Below are positions 2,376 through 28,546 of a stretch of 47,231 bases of DNA, one piece after another. The stretch is from a bacterium (lineage in GTDB: Bacteria > Krumholzibacteriota > Krumholzibacteriia > JACNKJ01). The notes beneath the pieces were generated by a model, which was not told the DNA's origin, did not search any database, and was given only the letters and a program-made list of their open reading frames with translations. The DNA lies in NCBI GenBank assembly GCA_016873475.1, contig VGXI01000006.1, positions 1-47,231 on the forward strand, given 5' to 3'. Each line of letters opens with the position of its first letter. The stretch's first letter is position 1. The position numbers and the translations under genes are program-made.

Positions 2376-4505
<2,130 letters not shown>

Positions 4506-8720: not shown

Positions 8721-9323
8721 GTGTCTCTGGCAGCGGAGAGGCGTGCAACAGCGGGGCTCAGCGACGAGCAGCTCTGGGCGCTGACCCAGGGCGAGCCCTC
8801 GCCGCTGGCGCGCCGGGCGGCCACCGCTCTGCTCGGTCGCTACCAGGAGCGCGTCTATCGCTGGTGCTACGGGCGGGTTGGCGAACACGAACTGGCCAGG
8901 GATCTCGCGCAGGACGTGCTCGTCAACGCCTACCGCGGCCTCGCCGGTTTCGACGGCCGCGCGCGCTTCTCCACCTGGCTCTTCGCGATCGCCAGGAACC
9001 GGTGTTTGAATGCGCTCCGGAGCCCGGCGCTCTTTGAGGAGGGCCTCGATCTCGATGCCCTGCCCGCTGCCCAGGGTGGTCAGGACGACGAGTTCTCCGG
9101 GCGCGAGGAGGAGGAGCGCCTCCTGGCGCTCATCCGCTCGGCGCTGCCGCCGCTGGACCAGCAGGTGCTGTGGCTGCGCTGCGTCGAGAAGATGCCGGTG
9201 GACGGCATCACGCGCCTGCTGGCGATCGAGGAAGCCAGCGGAGCGCGGGCAGTCCTGCAGCGCGCCCGGCGCCGCCTCCGCGCGGCGCTGGCGGCCGAGG
9301 AAGGAGACGAGGTCCGTGGTTGA
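8721..9323 (+). CDS. ECF-type RNA polymerase sigma factor
   Basis: This 200-residue sigma-70 family protein has the two ECF regions. Sigma2 (about 35-95) includes RVYRWCYGRVG, ELARDLAQDVLVNAYRGL and FSTWLFAIARNRCLN. Sigma4 (about 132-190) includes LPPLDQQVLWLRCVEKMPVDGI and a basic final helix. It should direct RNA polymerase to a small regulon in response to an envelope signal. Start is GTG 8721, with GGGAGG 4 bp upstream. The anti-sigma gene overlaps its end by 8 bp, indicating coupled synthesis of the pair. No convincing ECF-type autoregulatory promoter could be named in the 170 bp upstream. Confidence 0.93.
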   Translation: MSLAAERRATAGLSDEQLWALTQGEPSPLARRAATALLGRYQERVYRWCYGRVGEHELARDLAQDVLVNAYRGLAGFDGRARFSTWLFAIARNRCLNALRSPALFEEGLDLDALPAAQGGQDDEFSGREEEERLLALIRSALPPLDQQVLWLRCVEKMPVDGITRLLAIEEASGARAVLQRARRRLRAALAAEEGDEVRG

Positions 9324-10002
9324 CCGCTGCCCATTGCCCGAACTGCTCCCCGAGCTGGCCGAACTACCGGCGACGGACCCGCGGCGCCGGCACCTGGACG
9401 CTTGCCCCGCCTGCCAGGCGCGCCTGGCCGACTACCGCGATTTCATGGCCGGGGCGGCGCCCTGTCCGCCCCGGGAGCTGAAGCCGGCGCTCGCCGCACT
9501 GGACGCCGGGCTGCGCGCGGCAATCGCGGAGAGCGAGGGGGCGGCAGCGAGGCCGCGGGTTCGCCGGCTGTCTCTCGAGCATCCGGCGGCACGGCTGGGC
9601 CTCGCCCTCGCCGCGGTCCTGTTGCTACTGGTCGCGCTGAATGCGCTGCCGCGAGGCACGCGAGAGCGGGAGATCCGGCTGCGCGTCGACGAGGAGCTGC
9701 CGGATGCCGGCCAGGGGCTGCGCCTGCGTCCGGCGCGCCTGCTGGCGGACGGCGGCCTCGCGCTCGCCTGGGAGCCGGTGGCGGGCGCGGACGCTTACTC
9801 GGTGCGGCTGCTGGCACCGGATCTCTCGCTGCTGGCCGAGCGCTCGAGCGGGGGCGCCACGGAGCTGCGCCTGGAGGCTCGCGAGCTGCGCGCACTGCTG
9901 GCCGGTGCGCGCATCCTGGTCTGGCAGGTCCAGGCGCGCGCGGGTGGGGATCCGCTCGTCCAGTCGTCGCCGGCGACCTTCGCCCTGCCCGCGGCGCCCT
10001 GA
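9316..10002 (+). CDS. ZAS-type membrane anti-sigma factor
   Basis: This 228-residue single-pass membrane protein carries the zinc anti-sigma signature H26-x3-C30-x2-C33 in its cytoplasmic N-terminus. A transmembrane helix lies at about 93-111. The extracytoplasmic part (about 115-228) contains a fibronectin-III-like segment (LAWEPVAGADAYSVRLL and WQVQARAGG). It should hold the preceding sigma factor inactive at the membrane. GTG 9316 overlaps the sigma gene, and the TPR-CHAT gene starts 8 bp after the stop. The periplasmic domain may sense a ligand or be the site of regulatory cleavage. The anti-sigma call rests on the zinc motif and on gene order. Confidence 0.85.
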   Translation: MVDRCPLPELLPELAELPATDPRRRHLDACPACQARLADYRDFMAGAAPCPPRELKPALAALDAGLRAAIAESEGAAARPRVRRLSLEHPAARLGLALAAVLLLLVALNALPRGTREREIRLRVDEELPDAGQGLRLRPARLLADGGLALAWEPVAGADAYSVRLLAPDLSLLAERSSGGATELRLEARELRALLAGARILVWQVQARAGGDPLVQSSPATFALPAAP

Positions 10003-10009
10003 GCCCGGC

Positions 10010-12781
10010 ATGCGTTTTCGCGCCCGGCATGTCGTCCCGCTCGCCGTCCTCTTCGCGCTGCTCGCGGCCCCGCCGGCGCGGCCCGCGCCGGTTGGCGCGA
10101 CCGGAGCGGCGGCGTGGCCCGCGCTGGCGCGGCTGGACTCGCTGCGCCTCGCCTGGCGCGGTGCCGAGGCGCTCGCCCTCATCGACACCCTCCTGCCCGC
10201 CGCGCGCGCAGCGCGCGACAGCGCCCGGCTCGCGGGACTGCTCGTCCGCCAGGGCGAGCTGCTGACGTCGCTGGGCAGCGCGGGCCTCGCCGAGGCGCCG
10301 CTGCGCGAAGCGCTCGCGCTGGGCGCGGCGCGAGGGGACACGCGCACCCGGCTCAACGCGCTGCGCTGGCTCGGTCTCGCGCTCGAGGGCCAGGGCCGCG
10401 CCGCCGAGGCGACGCAGCGCTACCTCGAGCTGCAGAACCTGGCCGCGGCCGCCGGTGACGCCAGGCACCAGGGCTGGGCGCAGGTGGGGCTGGCCTGGCA
10501 GGACTACCAGGCCGGCCAGAGCGCGCGCAGCGCCGAGCGCTACCGCCAGGCGATCGCGCACTTCGCCGCCACCGACGAGCGCCGCGGCGAGATCTGGGCC
10601 TGGAACGGTCTCGGCGGCGCGCTCGCCAGTCTCGGCGACTATCGCGCGGCGATGGACTGCTACCGGCGCGCGGCCGCGGGTGCGCGCGCCGGCGGCGATC
10701 CGACGGTCGAAGCGATGGCACTCAACAACCTGGGCGGCCTCGCCTTCGACCTCGGCGATCCCGGCGATGCGATCGGGCACTTCGACCGCGCCCGCCAGAT
10801 CGAGATCGCTGAGCACTACCCCAAGGGCGCCTTCCTGCCCGCGCTCAACATCAGCCGTTGCGAGCAAGAGCTGGGGCGGCTCGCGGCGGCATCAGCGCTC
10901 CTCGACTCCCTGCTCGGCGCGAGTCGCGCCGGCGGCTGGCCCGATCTGGAAGCCCGGGCCCAACTCGGCCGCGCCGAGCTGGCGATGCGCCGCGCGCGCC
11001 CGCGCCAGGCGGCGGGGATCTACCGCGAGGTGCTGGCCATGGGCGCGCGCCTGCCCGAGCGCAGTGCGCTGGACGCCCGTCTCGGCCTCGCCCGCGCCCT
11101 GGCCCGCTGCGAGGGCGATGCGGCCGCGCTCGCCGCGCTCTCCTTCGGCGATGCGCCGCTCGAGGACCGCCAGCTCGCAACGGCGATCGCTGCTGAGACC
11201 GGTCGCCGGCTGCTTGCGCTCGGCCGGCCGGCAGAGGCGCTGCCGCGCTACCGCGCCGCCGCCGCCGAGGCCGCCCAGCTGGGCCTGGGCGGCCTGCGCG
11301 TGCAGGCGCTGGCCGGCCTCGCCGCTGCACAGCGCGCGCTGGGGCACGCCGACAGCGCCCTCGTTCTCCTGCGCGAGGGCGCACGGATCTGGGAAGCCGA
11401 ACGCAGCCTGCCGCGCGACCCCGAGTGGCGTGAGCAGCGCGGGGCGGCCGGTCATCTCCTCTACAGCGAACTTGCGCTCGCCCTGCTCGCGCCGCGCGCC
11501 GGCCTCAAGGAGGCTGCGCGCACGCGCCCCGCCTTCGACCAGCTCCAGCGCTTCAAGGCGCGCACGCTGCAGGAGCGCATGCTCGGGCCTGGCGCCCCCG
11601 CGGGCGAGTCCGCCTGGGCAACGGCCAACCTGGATCGATTGCAGCGCGAGACCCTGCGCGACGGCGAATTGCTGCTCGACCTCTATCTCGGCCCGGAGCG
11701 CTCGCTGCTCTTCGCGGTGACGCGCGCGCACTGCTACGCCCTGTTGTTGCCGGCCGAGGAACTGATCAGCGGCCGCCTGCGCGCATTGCATGGTCTGCTC
11801 GCCGCGCCGCCGGACCGGGCCGCACCGGCCGCCGCGCGAGAGGCCGAGCAGGCGGTGATCGCGGCGGCGGCCGCCGCCCTGCGCGGCCAGCTCTTCGGGG
11901 GGATCGAGGACCTCCTGGTGGCGAGCCGGCGCGTGGTGCTCGTCCCCGACGGCGTGCTCAACCTGTTCGCTCCCGCCCTGCTCGACCTTGCCGGGGGCCG
12001 GGAGTGGATCCGCGTCCCCGCCGCCGCCGTGCTCGTCGGACTGCGCGCGGGCGGTGGGGCACCGGCGCCACTGCGGCCGCTGCGCGCGCTCGCCCTTGCG
12101 GGCGACGGTGAGCGCGTCGCCCTGCCGGGCGCACGCCGCGAAGCCGCGGCCCTGGCGCGGGGTTATCGGGGCGTCGAGCGCTTGCTCCTGCCGGGGGCGG
12201 TCGGCGGCGACATCTCCCTCGAGCGCCTGCGCGGCTACGACCTGCTGCACATCGCCGCCCACGCCGAGCTGAACGACCAGAGCCCCTGGCAGTCCGCGCT
12301 GCTGCTCGGCGGCAAGCGGCTCAGCGCGGCCGAGATCGCCCGCGGCCGGCTCGACGCGCGCCTCGCCGTGCTGGCGGCCTGCGCCTCGGCGGACGGCCGC
12401 CGGCTCTCGGGCGAGGGCGTCCTCGGCCTGGCGAGCGCCTTCCTCGGCGCCGGCGCGCCGGCCGTGATCGCGACACTCTGGCCCGTCGACGATGCGGCGA
12501 CCGCCGCGCTGATGGAGCGCTTCTACGCCGAGCTGGCCGCCGGGCGGAGCGCGGCCGCCGCCCTGGCCGGCGCCCAGGCGGCCCTGCGCACCAGGGAGTC
12601 CACCGCCCATCCCTTCTTCTGGGCCGGCGTCGTGCTGGTGGGGGACGGGGAGGCCGGTCTGCCCCTGCGCCAGCGGCCCTTCCTCGCCCGTCACGGCCTC
12701 CGCCTCCTGGCCGGCCTGGCCGGGCTTCTCCTGCTCTCGGTCGCCCTGCGGCCCGCCCGAAAAATGCGCGCCTCCTTGTGA
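10010..12781 (+). CDS. exported TPR-CHAT protein (caspase-like protease), membrane-anchored
   Basis: The protein has 923 residues. A signal peptide (about 1-26) predicts export. Residues about 40-540 form a long array of tetratricopeptide-type helical repeats (for example GEIWAWNGLGGALASLGDYRAAMDCY and AMALNNLGGLAFDLGD). The C-terminal CHAT domain (about 570-875) keeps the catalytic pair: H751 in HIAAHAE and C791 in LAACAS. A GEGVLGLASAFLGAGAPAVIATLWPV stretch follows. A last hydrophobic helix (about 890-911) ends in a short basic tail, so the protease would face the periplasm. It is encoded with an ECF sigma factor and its anti-sigma factor, which suggests a role in that signal path. The substrate is unknown. 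Confidence 0.88.
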   Translation: MRFRARHVVPLAVLFALLAAPPARPAPVGATGAAAWPALARLDSLRLAWRGAEALALIDTLLPAARAARDSARLAGLLVRQGELLTSLGSAGLAEAPLREALALGAARGDTRTRLNALRWLGLALEGQGRAAEATQRYLELQNLAAAAGDARHQGWAQVGLAWQDYQAGQSARSAERYRQAIAHFAATDERRGEIWAWNGLGGALASLGDYRAAMDCYRRAAAGARAGGDPTVEAMALNNLGGLAFDLGDPGDAIGHFDRARQIEIAEHYPKGAFLPALNISRCEQELGRLAAASALLDSLLGASRAGGWPDLEARAQLGRAELAMRRARPRQAAGIYREVLAMGARLPERSALDARLGLARALARCEGDAAALAALSFGDAPLEDRQLATAIAAETGRRLLALGRPAEALPRYRAAAAEAAQLGLGGLRVQALAGLAAAQRALGHADSALVLLREGARIWEAERSLPRDPEWREQRGAAGHLLYSELALALLAPRAGLKEAARTRPAFDQLQRFKARTLQERMLGPGAPAGESAWATANLDRLQRETLRDGELLLDLYLGPERSLLFAVTRAHCYALLLPAEELISGRLRALHGLLAAPPDRAAPAAAREAEQAVIAAAAAALRGQLFGGIEDLLVASRRVVLVPDGVLNLFAPALLDLAGGREWIRVPAAAVLVGLRAGGGAPAPLRPLRALALAGDGERVALPGARREAAALARGYRGVERLLLPGAVGGDISLERLRGYDLLHIAAHAELNDQSPWQSALLLGGKRLSAAEIARGRLDARLAVLAACASADGRRLSGEGVLGLASAFLGAGAPAVIATLWPVDDAATAALMERFYAELAAGRSAAAALAGAQAALRTRESTAHPFFWAGVVLVGDGEAGLPLRQRPFLARHGLRLLAGLAGLLLLSVALRPARKMRASL

Positions 12782-12790
12782 TCCCCGCAC

Positions 12791-12830
12791 GCCTCCCGGT
12801 TCTCAGAAGCCGACCACTTCGCCGGGAGGC
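12791..12830 (+). promoter_or_regulatory. hairpin covering the FG-GAP gene's ribosome binding site
   Basis: GCCTCCCGG (12791-12799) and CCGGGAGGC (12822-12830) are perfect 9-bp inverted repeats with a 22-nt loop. The right arm contains GGGAGG (12824-12829), the Shine-Dalgarno sequence placed 6 bp before the ATG at 12836. In RNA the stem would hide the ribosome site, so translation could depend on opening of the stem. Confidence 0.55.
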
Positions 12831-12835
12831 CGACC

Positions 12836-15800
12836 ATGCCGCGCACCGCCGTCCGCAGCACTTCCATCCTTCGCCTTGCCGCCGCGCTCACCCTCCTCGC
12901 TGTCGCCCTCGGCCTGCCGCTCCGCACGGCGGCGCCGCCCCGCGCAGGCGCGCCGGCCGCCGCGCTGCCGGCCGGCATCGATGCGGGCTGGTGGGACGCC
13001 GTGCGCCAGGACCTGAGCGCGCGCGAATACGCCTTCGACTTCACGCCAGCGGGCGGCCTCGCCGCCCCCAACCGCGCGCAGGGCCTGCGCCTCGACTTCA
13101 CGGCGGCGGGCTTGAAGGTCGAGCCGCGCCGCGGCAGCGCCGCGGACTGGAACTGGACCTGGCGCACGGCCGCCTGGGGCCGCCCCGGCGCGCTGCAGGC
13201 TCTGCCCGCCGTGGCGCCGCAGGCCGAGGTGCAGCGGGTGGAGTACGCCTACGCCGGCCTGCGCGAGTGGTACGAGAACCGCGAGGCGGGGCTCGAGCAG
13301 GGCTTCACCGTCGGCGCGCCGCCCGCCGGCGAGGGTCCGCTCGCGGTGCTGGGCGCGCTGGACGGCACCCTGAGCGCACGCCGTGCGGGCGAGGGCCTGG
13401 TCTTCGTCGACGCGCAGGGACGCGAGCGCCTGCGCTATGGCGAGCTGGCGGCCTGGGACGCGACCGGTCGCGACCTGCCCTGCCGGCTCGAAATCGCGGA
13501 CGGCGGCCTGCGGCTGCTCGTCGACGACATGGGTGCGCAGTATCCGGTGGTCATCGATCCCCTGCTCACCACGCCCGACTGGGAGGTGCACGGCGCCATC
13601 GCCAACGCCGCGATGGGCTATCGCGTGGCGACGGCGGGCGACGTCAACGGCGATGGCTACAGCGACGTGATCGCCGGCTCGCCGGACTACACGACGAACG
13701 GCGTCACCCATTACGGCCGTGCCTGGGTGTTCCTCGGCGGCGCCGGCGGGCGACGTCAACGGCGATGGCTACAGCGACGTGATCGCCGGCTCGCCGGACT
13801 ACACGACGAACGGCGTCACCCATTACGGCCGTGCCTGGGTGTTCCTCGGCGGCGCCGGCGGCCTCGCGGCCACGCCGCACTGGGAAGTCACGACCACTCA
13901 GGACGACTGCCGCTTCGGCTACAGCGTGGCGACGGCTGGGGACGTCAACGGCGACGGCTACGACGACGTGCTCGTCGGCGCGCCCGACTACACGCTGAGC
14001 AGCCAGGAGAACGGCTGCGCCTTTCTCTACCTCGGATCGGCGAGCGGCCTCGACACCAGCGCCGACTGGCGCGAGGACGGCAGCAACACCTACGTCTCCT
14101 TCGGCTACAGCGTGTCGACGGCGGGCGACGTCAACGGCGACGGCTACGACGACATCATCATCGGCGATCCCTACTTCGGCACCACGGGGCGCGCGACGAT
14201 CTACCTGGGCGGCGCCTCCGGCCCCGACCACACCTACGATTGGTTCGTGAACCTGACCGGCCGCACCGGCCACTGCGTGGCGGGCGCGGGCGACGTCAAC
14301 GGCGACGGCTATGCGGACGTGATCGTCGGCTCGCCCTGGCGCTCGAACGGGCTGGGCGCGGAGGGTGCGTTCTACGTCTTCCACGGCGGATCCGGCGGGC
14401 CGGACACCACCGCGGATCGCACGGTCTTCGGGGACGAGGTCGCGCAGTACCTGGGCTACTGCGTGGCGCGCGCCGGGGACACCAACGGCGACGGCTACGG
14501 CGACGTGCTCGTGGGCGGCGTGGCGCTGGACGGCTTCTACGCCACGACCTCGAAAGTGCAGCTCTACACGGGCGGCGCGAGCGGCGTGGGCGCCACGCCG
14601 GTCTGGGAGAAGGAGCAGGCCGACGACCTGCAGCCGCTGGGCTACGACCTCGCCACGGCGGGAGACGTGAACGGCGACGGCCTGGCCGACGTGCTCGTCG
14701 GCTGCCGGCAGAGCGATCTCGGCGGCGCCGACGCGGGCACGGCCTGGCTCTACTTCGGCTCGCTCCAGGGCCTGGCGACCACCGCGGCCTGGACCGTGGA
14801 CGGCGAGGCGGCCGGCGACCTGCTCGGCCCCGTCGGCACGGCGGGCGACGTGGACGGCGATGGCTTCAGCGACATCCTGCTCGGCGCCACCGGCAGCGAC
14901 GTCGGCCACGCCGCCGCCGGTGGACTCTACTGCTACTCGGGCGCCGGCGACCTGCCCAAGACGACGAGCGGCTGGTACGCCCAGGGCGACCAGGTCGATG
15001 GCACCTTCGCCTACCGCCTGGCCTGCGCGGGCGACGTCAACGGCGACGGCTACGACGACCTCTGGGTCGGCGCGCCCTGGTACGACAACGGCCAGGTCGA
15101 CGAAGGCGCCGTCTTCCTCTACTTGGGCGGCCAGCTCGGCCTGGCCTACGCGCCGGGCTGGTGGGCCGAGGGCGATCAGACGGATTGCCACTTCGGCTTC
15201 GGGCTCGACAGCGCGGGCGATGTGAACGGGGACGGCCTCGCGGACGTCATCGTCGGCGCTTCCTGGTACGACGGCAGCGCCGGCTCCAGTGGCGCTGCCT
15301 TCCTCTGGTACGGCACGGCGGGCGGTGCCCCCTCCGGCAATCCCGCGAATGCGGACTGGAGCGCCATCGGCGCCCAGGCCGGGGCAATGCTGGGCGCCGG
15401 CGTCTGCGGGGCCGGCGACGTCAACGGCGACGGCTACGGCGACGTGGTGATCGGCGCGCCCTTCTACGACAATCCGACGACCAACGAAGGCGCGGTCTGG
15501 GGCTACTACGGCGGTCCGACCGGGCTGCCGGCCGCGCACGACTGGTTCCACGACACGGGCAGCGCGGAATCCGGCTACGGGCTGCGTCTGGCCTCCGCCG
15601 GCGACATGAACGGCGACGGCTACAGCGATCTGCTCGTGGCCGCGCCGCTGTACAACCACGGCAGCACGGACGAGGGCCTGATCTTCGTCTACATCGGCGG
15701 CGAGGACGGGCTGCAGACCGGCGCACCCTGGTGGTTCGCCGAGAGCAACGAGGCGGACGCCGAGCTCGGCCTGTCCATCGCCTGCGCCGGGGACGTCAAC

Positions 15801-16991
15801 GCCGACGGCTACAGCGACATCATCGCCGGCGCGCCCTACATGGACTCACCGGCCACGGACGTCGGCCACGCGCTGGTCTGGCTGGGCGCGGCCACGGCGC
15901 CGCCGACCGGCACGCCGGCCAACGCCGAGCTGAACGTCGGCATCAGCGACAGCTATGCGCACCTCGGCAGCGCGGTGGGCGGCGCCGGCGACGTCGACGG
16001 CGACGGCTACAGCGACGTGATCATCGGCGCCCCGCACTACACGACGGCTGCCGGCACCGCCGCCGGCCTCGCCTTCATCTACCGCGGCGGCCCGGACGGC
16101 ATCGTCCACGGCGCGGCGCCCTGGTTGATCGACGGCATCCAGGAAGAGAGCTGGTTCGGCAACGCCACCTGCAGCGGAGACTTCAACGGCGACGGCTTCA
16201 GCGACGTCGTCGTCGGCGCGGAGCAGTACAGCAACGGTCAGAACCAGGAGGGCCTCGCCTTCCTCTTCTATGGCAACGGCGGCCGCGGCCTCGCCCGCAC
16301 GCCGCGCCAGTGGAAGACGGACACCGTGACCCGTCTTGCGCCCCTGGGCCGCAGCGACGCCCTCGACGCCGTCGCCCTCAGCGCGCGGGGTCGCACGCCG
16401 GGCGGCCGCGGCACAGTGCGCTTCGTGGCCGAGGTCGAGCCGCTGGGCACGGACTTCGACGGCGCGGGCACGGTGGCCGGCAATTGGACCGACACCGGCG
16501 CTCCCGCGGCGGGTGCGGGCAGCGCGGTCGCGCTCGCGCCGGCGCTCGCCGGCGGCCTCGCCGACGACACGGCGCAGCACTGGCGCCTGCGCCTCGAGAC
16601 CGGCGATCCTTACTTCCCGCGCACGCCCTGGCTCAGCCTGTCCGCGAACGCGATCACGATGACGGACTTCCGCACGCGCGGCGCAGGCACGGGGGCGGGC
16701 GAGACGCCGCCGGCGAGCCTGCTGGCGCTGGAGAGCTACCCGAATCCCTTCAATCCCGCGACCACGCTGAGTTACACGCTGCCCGCCGCCGGACATGTGC
16801 AGCTGGATGTCTACGACGCTGCCGGACGCCACCTGCGGCAGCTCGTCTCGACGACACAGGCGGCCGGCCCTCACACGGCGGTGTGGAACGGGTGTGATGG
16901 GGAGGGCCGGCCCCTGGTTTCCGGGCTCTACTTCGCCCGCCTGCAGGCGGCGGGTGCCGCAGAGAGCCGGAAGCTCGTGCTCGTGAAATGA
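12836..16991 (+). CDS. secreted FG-GAP propeller protein with FlgD-like C-terminal tail, frame-shifted by a duplication
   Basis: Removing one copy of a 112-bp tandem duplication (13632-13861) restores a single frame of 1347 residues; as written, the frame breaks near residue 305. A signal peptide (about 1-32) and a 220-residue beta-rich N-terminal domain (EYAYAGLREWYENREAGLEQGF, ending YPVVIDPLL) come first. Then follow 14 FG-GAP repeats of about 65 residues, each with a Ca2+-binding AGDVNGDGYSDV-type loop and a GAP-like turn. Fourteen repeats fit two seven-bladed propellers. A linker domain is followed by the C-terminal NPFNP module and FlgD-Ig-like fold (YPNPFNPATTLSYTLP to the end), as in secreted proteins of the FCB group. 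It begins 54 bp after the TPR-CHAT gene. Cell-surface binding or adhesion is inferred. Confidence 0.8.
13632..13861 (+). repeat. perfect 112-bp tandem duplication inside the FG-GAP gene
   Basis: Bases 13632-13749 are identical to 13744-13861: two copies with a 112-bp period and 6 bp of shared sequence (CGGCGG) at the joints. The unit encodes one FG-GAP loop (GDVNGDGYSDVIAGSP to VFLGGAGG). Since 112 is not a multiple of 3, the second copy moves translation out of frame. Deleting either copy restores the frame. Other repeats in the gene differ at many bases, so this exact copy is recent or an assembly artefact. Confidence 0.95.
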
Positions 16992-27445: not shown

Positions 27446-28546
27446 ATGCGTACGAACACCGGCACCCTCGTGATCGCTCTCGGCCTCCTGACCTGCGCGG
27501 CCCTCGCTCGCGCCGAATCCGACTACAGCAAGGACATCGTCCGCCGCTTCGACGAGGGCAGCGTGAGCCACCTGCGCCTCGAGAACCTGGCCGGCCGTCT
27601 CCTGCTCGAGCGCGCGGACGGGAAGGCCCTCGAGCTGCGGGCGACCGTGCGCGCGGACGCCTTTGGTGACCTCGAGGCCCGCGACGTCGCGCAGCTGCTC
27701 GACCTGCGCATCGAGCGGGAGGGCGAGGGGATCCTCATCAAGGCCTCTTACCCGCTGGCGCGCTACGATCGCTATCGCTACGGCGACGCCGATGGCGGCT
27801 TCTTCTCCGGCACCACCCAGACCCGCGTCGACGGCCAGAAGGTGCGCATCAGCATGGGGCGCAAAGGTGATGGGCTGCCGCTGTGGGTGGACTTCCAGCT
27901 GCGGGTGCCGGCGGAGGTCGACTGCGACCTGCGGCATCTCGTCGGCAGCGTCAAGGCGCAGGCGCTGCGCGGCGACCTGCGCGTCGACTGCGCGAGCGCC
28001 GAGATCGCCATTGCCCGACACGAGGGGGCCGTCCTCGTCGACAGCGGGAGCGGGGACATCCGGGTGGAGGGCCAGCGCGGGACCCTGCGCCTGGACACGG
28101 GCAGCGGCGACATCAAGGTGGAGGACCTCGAGGGCGACTTCGCTGCGGACACGGGCAGCGGCGACATCGTCCTCAAGCGGGGCCGCGGCGAGCGCCTCGA
28201 CGCTGACACGGGCAGCGGCGACGTCCTGCTCAGTGACGCCAGCTACCCGCAGCTCGCCATCGACACGGGTAGCGGCGACGTGCGCGTCGGCTCCATCCTG
28301 GGCGCGCTCCGGCGCTGGAAGGTGGACACGGGCAGCGGCGATGTCATCTTCCAGCTCCCCGGCGCGGGGAGTTCCTTCCGCCTGGAGGTCGACACGGCCA
28401 GCGGCGAAGTGGAGTGCACCTTCCCGAGCCGGGATCTTCGCCTCGAGCGGGGGCGCATCCGCGGGCTGACCGTGGGCGACGGCGCCGGCCTCATCATCGT
28501 GGACACGGGCAGCGGCGACGTCTCCCTGGTGGAGACGCACCCCTAG
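27446..28546 (+). CDS. exported DUF4097-type beta-repeat protein
   Basis: The protein has 366 residues, with a signal peptide ending in ALARA (about 1-23). The C-terminal half contains eight short repeats built on D-T-G-S-G-D (DSGSGD, six DTGSGD, and one degenerate DTASGE) spaced about 18-30 residues apart. This is the pattern of DUF4097, a right-handed beta-solenoid or adhesin-like fold. The N-terminal part contains strands and a YRYGDADGGFF loop. AAGGGAG lies 7 bp before ATG 27446. It is monocistronic with its own terminator. Surface or periplasmic location is likely, and its binding partner is unknown. The nearest alternative label is a DUF2807/bactofilin-like beta-helix protein. Confidence 0.8.
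   Translation: MRTNTGTLVIALGLLTCAALARAESDYSKDIVRRFDEGSVSHLRLENLAGRLLLERADGKALELRATVRADAFGDLEARDVAQLLDLRIEREGEGILIKASYPLARYDRYRYGDADGGFFSGTTQTRVDGQKVRISMGRKGDGLPLWVDFQLRVPAEVDCDLRHLVGSVKAQALRGDLRVDCASAEIAIARHEGAVLVDSGSGDIRVEGQRGTLRLDTGSGDIKVEDLEGDFAADTGSGDIVLKRGRGERLDADTGSGDVLLSDASYPQLAIDTGSGDVRVGSILGALRRWKVDTGSGDVIFQLPGAGSSFRLEVDTASGEVECTFPSRDLRLERGRIRGLTVGDGAGLIIVDTGSGDVSLVETHP

Follow-up and report, generated by a model that had tools for sequence, protein, structure and literature searches.

Tandem duplications within the capsule genes of pneumococci reportedly revert. Phase variation has been described for such capsule gene duplications, as far as the titles of two reports go (Waite 2001, 2003, cited in PMC4022640), and by the same titles the locus considered here resembles them in that an exact tandem duplication within a reading frame inactivates a surface-related gene. 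It differs from the pneumococcal case in that the present locus has one consensus only and unrelated genes of the same draft genome carry many similar duplications. The second relevant precedent is technical: scaffold joins made despite an overlap leave duplicate sequence, which is a recurrent error in metagenome-assembled genomes, and local repeats with a wrong copy number are also a common error of metagenome assembly (Chen et al. 2020, PMC7111523). The present locus would be similar to these errors (PMC7111523), with overlapping flanks joined without removal of the overlap and a duplicated stretch left behind; in the published case the copies are separated by Ns, whereas here no Ns intervene and one copy runs straight into the other through a 6-bp match.

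The gene itself belongs to the FG-GAP proteins (PF01839 / PF13517) that have a conserved domain at the N-terminus and a FlgD-Ig-like domain (PF13860) at the C-terminus, and in this respect it is an ordinary member of a group whose homologues occur in numerous genomes within and outside the class. The split reading frame is peculiar to it; the eight full-length homologues examined all lack it. The window, that is, the whole stretch of DNA that was analysed, spans the full length of contig G000:C6 (47,231 bp); the draft genome to which this contig belongs is fragmented (3.64 Mb, 425 contigs). The gene and the duplication are arranged in the window as follows.

12836-13749, plus strand: 5' part of the FG-GAP gene in the correct frame, with a signal-like N-terminus, the conserved N-terminal domain and the first FG-GAP repeat (ORF and translation; PF01839 at residues 261-299; N-terminal domain aligned over 10 homologues)
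13632-13749, plus strand: copy 1 of the 118-bp exact repeat, unit period 112 (exact string comparison; TRF)
13744-13861, plus strand: copy 2 of the 118-bp exact repeat, shifting the frame by +1 (exact string comparison; single copy in the closest homologue)
13744-13749, plus strand: the joint CGGCGG, common to both copies (exact string comparison)
13719-16991, plus strand: ORF with the remainder of the FG-GAP gene in the correct frame, comprising FG-GAP repeats and a C-terminal FlgD-Ig-like domain (ORF, Pfam)
Sequence at the joint of the 112-bp duplication: GGCGGCGCCGGCGGGCGACGTC

The first-pass annotation had claimed a perfect duplication with CGGCGG at both joints, and exact string comparison agrees: the stretches 13632-13749 and 13744-13861 are identical at 118/118 bp with a period of 112, which is also the period given by TRF. 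The bases just outside the repeat mismatch (A/C on the left, G/C on the right), and if one mismatch is allowed to the left, the homology at the joint amounts to 10/11 bases. The probability of a chance origin of a 118-bp exact repeat is negligible. According to TRF, no other tandem array of the window has a period above 27 bp; the second-longest exact repeat within the gene is 33 bp, and neither tRNA genes nor inverted repeats of at least 30 bp were found in the 47,231-bp window. The joint occurs once in the draft genome and has no N characters, and a search for the single-copy allele of the duplicated region among the draft contigs gave none.

The break of the frame and its restoration by removal of one copy were likewise borne out. 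In the two-copy sequence, the frame starting at 12836 goes off-frame and ends at 16897 (1353 codons), and the correct frame is picked up again in the ORF 13719-16991 (1090 codons); the one-copy version has one frame of 1347 codons. The off-frame reading stays open to 16897 because the GC content around the gene is approximately 73%. Both parts of the gene contain FG-GAP repeats (PF01839, 13 stretches, E = 1e-96, above the cut-off), and FlgD_ig (PF13860) is located at the C-terminus. The other FG-GAP repeats had been described as well diverged, and indeed they are just 60-75% alike at the DNA level, with a spacing of mostly 165-198 bp. Natural duplication of a propeller blade was considered and rejected, as 112 bp is not divisible by three and differs from the blade spacing.

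We then compared the same gene in related genomes; the relatives searched comprised no second genome of the genus. An alignment-based search of genome contigs also gave homologues. The closest homologue, from another genome of the same family (G003:C104), is 59% identical in the N-terminal domain, and its alignment (query 229-906 to 11113-11793 and query 909-1337 to 11687-12112, overlapping on the G003 side) directly shows one copy at the duplication site. This homologue has one intact frame of 1394 aa and, like the window gene, it follows a CHAT-type gene. Seven further full-length homologues each have a single open frame with 12-14 GD-x-x-GDG motifs, and the N-terminal domain of the window gene is 45-59% identical to those of the homologues. 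None of the homologues examined (eight full-length) has a duplication at this site. Since they carry one copy, the duplication is derived in the window sequence, and the closest homologue confirms one copy as the ancestral state.

We scanned about 1.74 of the 3.64 Mb of the draft genome for exact two-copy tandem repeats, and 1.81 Mb from genomes of the same class and GTDB loci served as the control, counted under the same rule. Duplications with a period of at least 40 bp and nearly full-length identity numbered 11 in the draft and 3 in the control, which differs from the draft in GC content and assembly method (one-sided binomial p = 0.024; the difference in the total count is modest). For exact lengths of at least 80 bp the counts were 7 and 0 (p = 0.007), with the threshold chosen post hoc, when the data had already been seen. 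In-frame and possibly natural repeats (42-bp in L112, 57-bp in L134, 105-bp in L082) were counted too. Ten duplications have a period of at least 46 bp; their exact lengths are 44, 57, 65, 86, 95, 97, 115, 115, 118 and 118 bp, so that none exceeds 118 bp, and in total 910 bases are repeated without an internal mismatch, which indicates neither age nor selection. The excess is blind to the reading frame: seven of these ten periods are not divisible by three, as expected at random. The duplications outside the window include the following.

L054 (contig C17), 6085-6214: duplication in a class-III aminotransferase gene
L072 (contig C72), 182-370: duplication in the C-terminal part of the COX1 protein (cytochrome oxidase tail)
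L134 (contig C36), 718-888: duplication in an EamA transporter gene
L042 (contig C4), 18813-19003: further exact two-copy tandem duplication
L134 (contig C36), 8659-8892: further exact two-copy tandem duplication
L129 (contig C31), 7288-7508: further exact two-copy tandem duplication
L082 (contig C42), 9153-9372: further exact two-copy tandem duplication

In the aminotransferase gene, the Aminotran_3 domain falls cleanly into two parts, one frame matching positions 8-170 of the Pfam profile and the other 178-355. The draft gene for an LVIVD-repeat protein also carries a tandem duplication, the membrane domain of an ABC exporter gains a repeated stretch of 32 residues by duplication, and a shorter, 36-bp duplication leads to a stop inside a subtilase. 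As a separate observation, L134 contains four tandem duplications in a 20-kb stretch (at 718, 8659, 10335 and 18346), so that the errors may be clustered on particular contigs. L054 additionally has near-exact direct repeats with few mismatches at 3582-3857 and 10300-10622 (distances 138 and 173); being diverged or spaced, they were left out of the counts.

The contig ends offer a possible source of such duplications. A comparison of 164 contig ends of the draft gave nine pairs with dovetail overlaps that were left unmerged (22, 24, 41, 97, 126, 128, 136, 158 and 255 bp), with 0-3 unmatched bases at the tips. We looked for a fixed k-mer overlap at these ends, but with lengths scattered between 22 and 255 bp, no k could be inferred. 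Two of the ten duplication joints carry fillers of 1-2 bases, matching the 0-3 unmatched bases at the tips of the overlapping ends. Four of the ten joints share 5-10 bases, while a blunt random joint gives at least five in approximately 1% of cases each; for the joint in the window, the probability of at least six shared bases by chance is approximately 0.004, and the joint in the cytochrome oxidase gene likewise has 10/11 shared bases with one mismatch allowed. Slippage in cells would produce such shared bases, and so would a program accepting a terminal overlap of about ten bases. Similarly, the 118-bp ceiling is expected if only overlaps under some limit escape merging, and it would equally arise with real duplications if the assembler were unable to span longer repeats.

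There are approximately ten similar duplications in unrelated genes, without regard to the reading frame; therefore, an assembly error, rather than a switch, is the most likely origin of the second copy. Together with the unmerged contig ends of similar sizes, this makes assembly error, one of the options initially listed, the best-fitting one, and we consider it very probable that the copy is an error of the draft genome, absent from the living cell. A true overlap of 118 bp would have existed between two contig (or read) ends; these would have been joined end to end at the short spurious match CGGCGG, and with the overlap not collapsed the 118 bp would appear twice. In general, end-to-end joining of an overlapping pair would yield a tandem duplication whose joint has 0-3 filler bases or a short spurious match. 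As is well established, a k-mer assembler is unable to join on 6 bases, hence the joint would have arisen when contigs were joined later on, or in reads that were chimeric or wrongly merged. That a join step or a chimeric read made the copy is our inference, as would be any attribution to a particular program. The gene in the organism would then be intact and encode an ordinary FG-GAP beta-propeller protein, secreted or on the surface. If, vice versa, the duplication were a real and recent event in the sampled population, produced by slippage or template switching at the CGGCGG (10/11) matches, the FG-GAP gene would be inactivated with no regulatory role. The exactness of the repeat, and hence its youth, the microhomology at the joint above the chance level and the single ancestral copy all agree with such a lesion; however, in the half of the genome that was sampled, about ten duplications, just as fresh and blind to frame, would need to be fixed at once, several of them in conserved genes, and one cell with all these gene-hitting duplications is improbable. 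Thus, a real lesion seems to us unlikely.

The headline option of the first-pass annotation, a reversible switch in which cells gain or lose the 112-bp copy and the surface protein is turned off or on, is mechanistically possible by analogy, but it is not supported by these data, and we regard it as very improbable. The locus has the expected anatomy, namely an exact tandem copy in a coding frame, of a length that is not a multiple of three, in a surface-type gene, and the titles on pneumococcal capsule loci (Waite 2001, 2003, cited in PMC4022640) point to reversible duplications within genes. Against this, one allele only was seen in the draft, the one genome of the species compared, and the homologues are all single-copy at the site. 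A literature search combining FG-GAP proteins with phase variation gave two papers, which by title and abstract concern biofilm matrix proteins, not a duplication switch, and a search for reversible tandem duplications gave weak matches only. The switch is not favoured mainly because of the genome-wide pattern: duplications of the same type are also present in non-surface metabolic genes of the draft, about ten equivalents are found in unrelated genes irrespective of frame, contig ends overlap unmerged, and nothing links the other duplications to surface variation. An even broader variant, an uncultured, very GC-rich bacterium in which exact 45-120 bp tandem duplications arise throughout the genome with such frequency that many genes of a population, including the FG-GAP gene, are reversibly off, is hardly credible.

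Read literally, the locus would look like a novel switch acting on a surface gene. What is seen across the genome points instead to a class of errors, exact tandem copies of 45-120 bp at joins, that silently break genes of draft genomes, and the duplication is most likely not a real feature of the organism. Such errors would mislead gene calls, counts of pseudogenes and searches for phase variation. A cheap screen would be to compare the number of exact two-copy tandem repeats per megabase with the overlaps of contig ends.

In the window, the FG-GAP gene is the last in a row of three (8721-16991), following the genes for a sigma-70 region 2 (ECF-like) sigma factor and a TPR-CHAT protein, and the CHAT/FG-GAP neighbourhood is kept at the homologous locus L024 of G003. 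Elsewhere in the window, at 28074-28522, a DUF4097 (toastrack) protein is encoded with six imperfect copies of a stretch encoding the DTGSGD motif.
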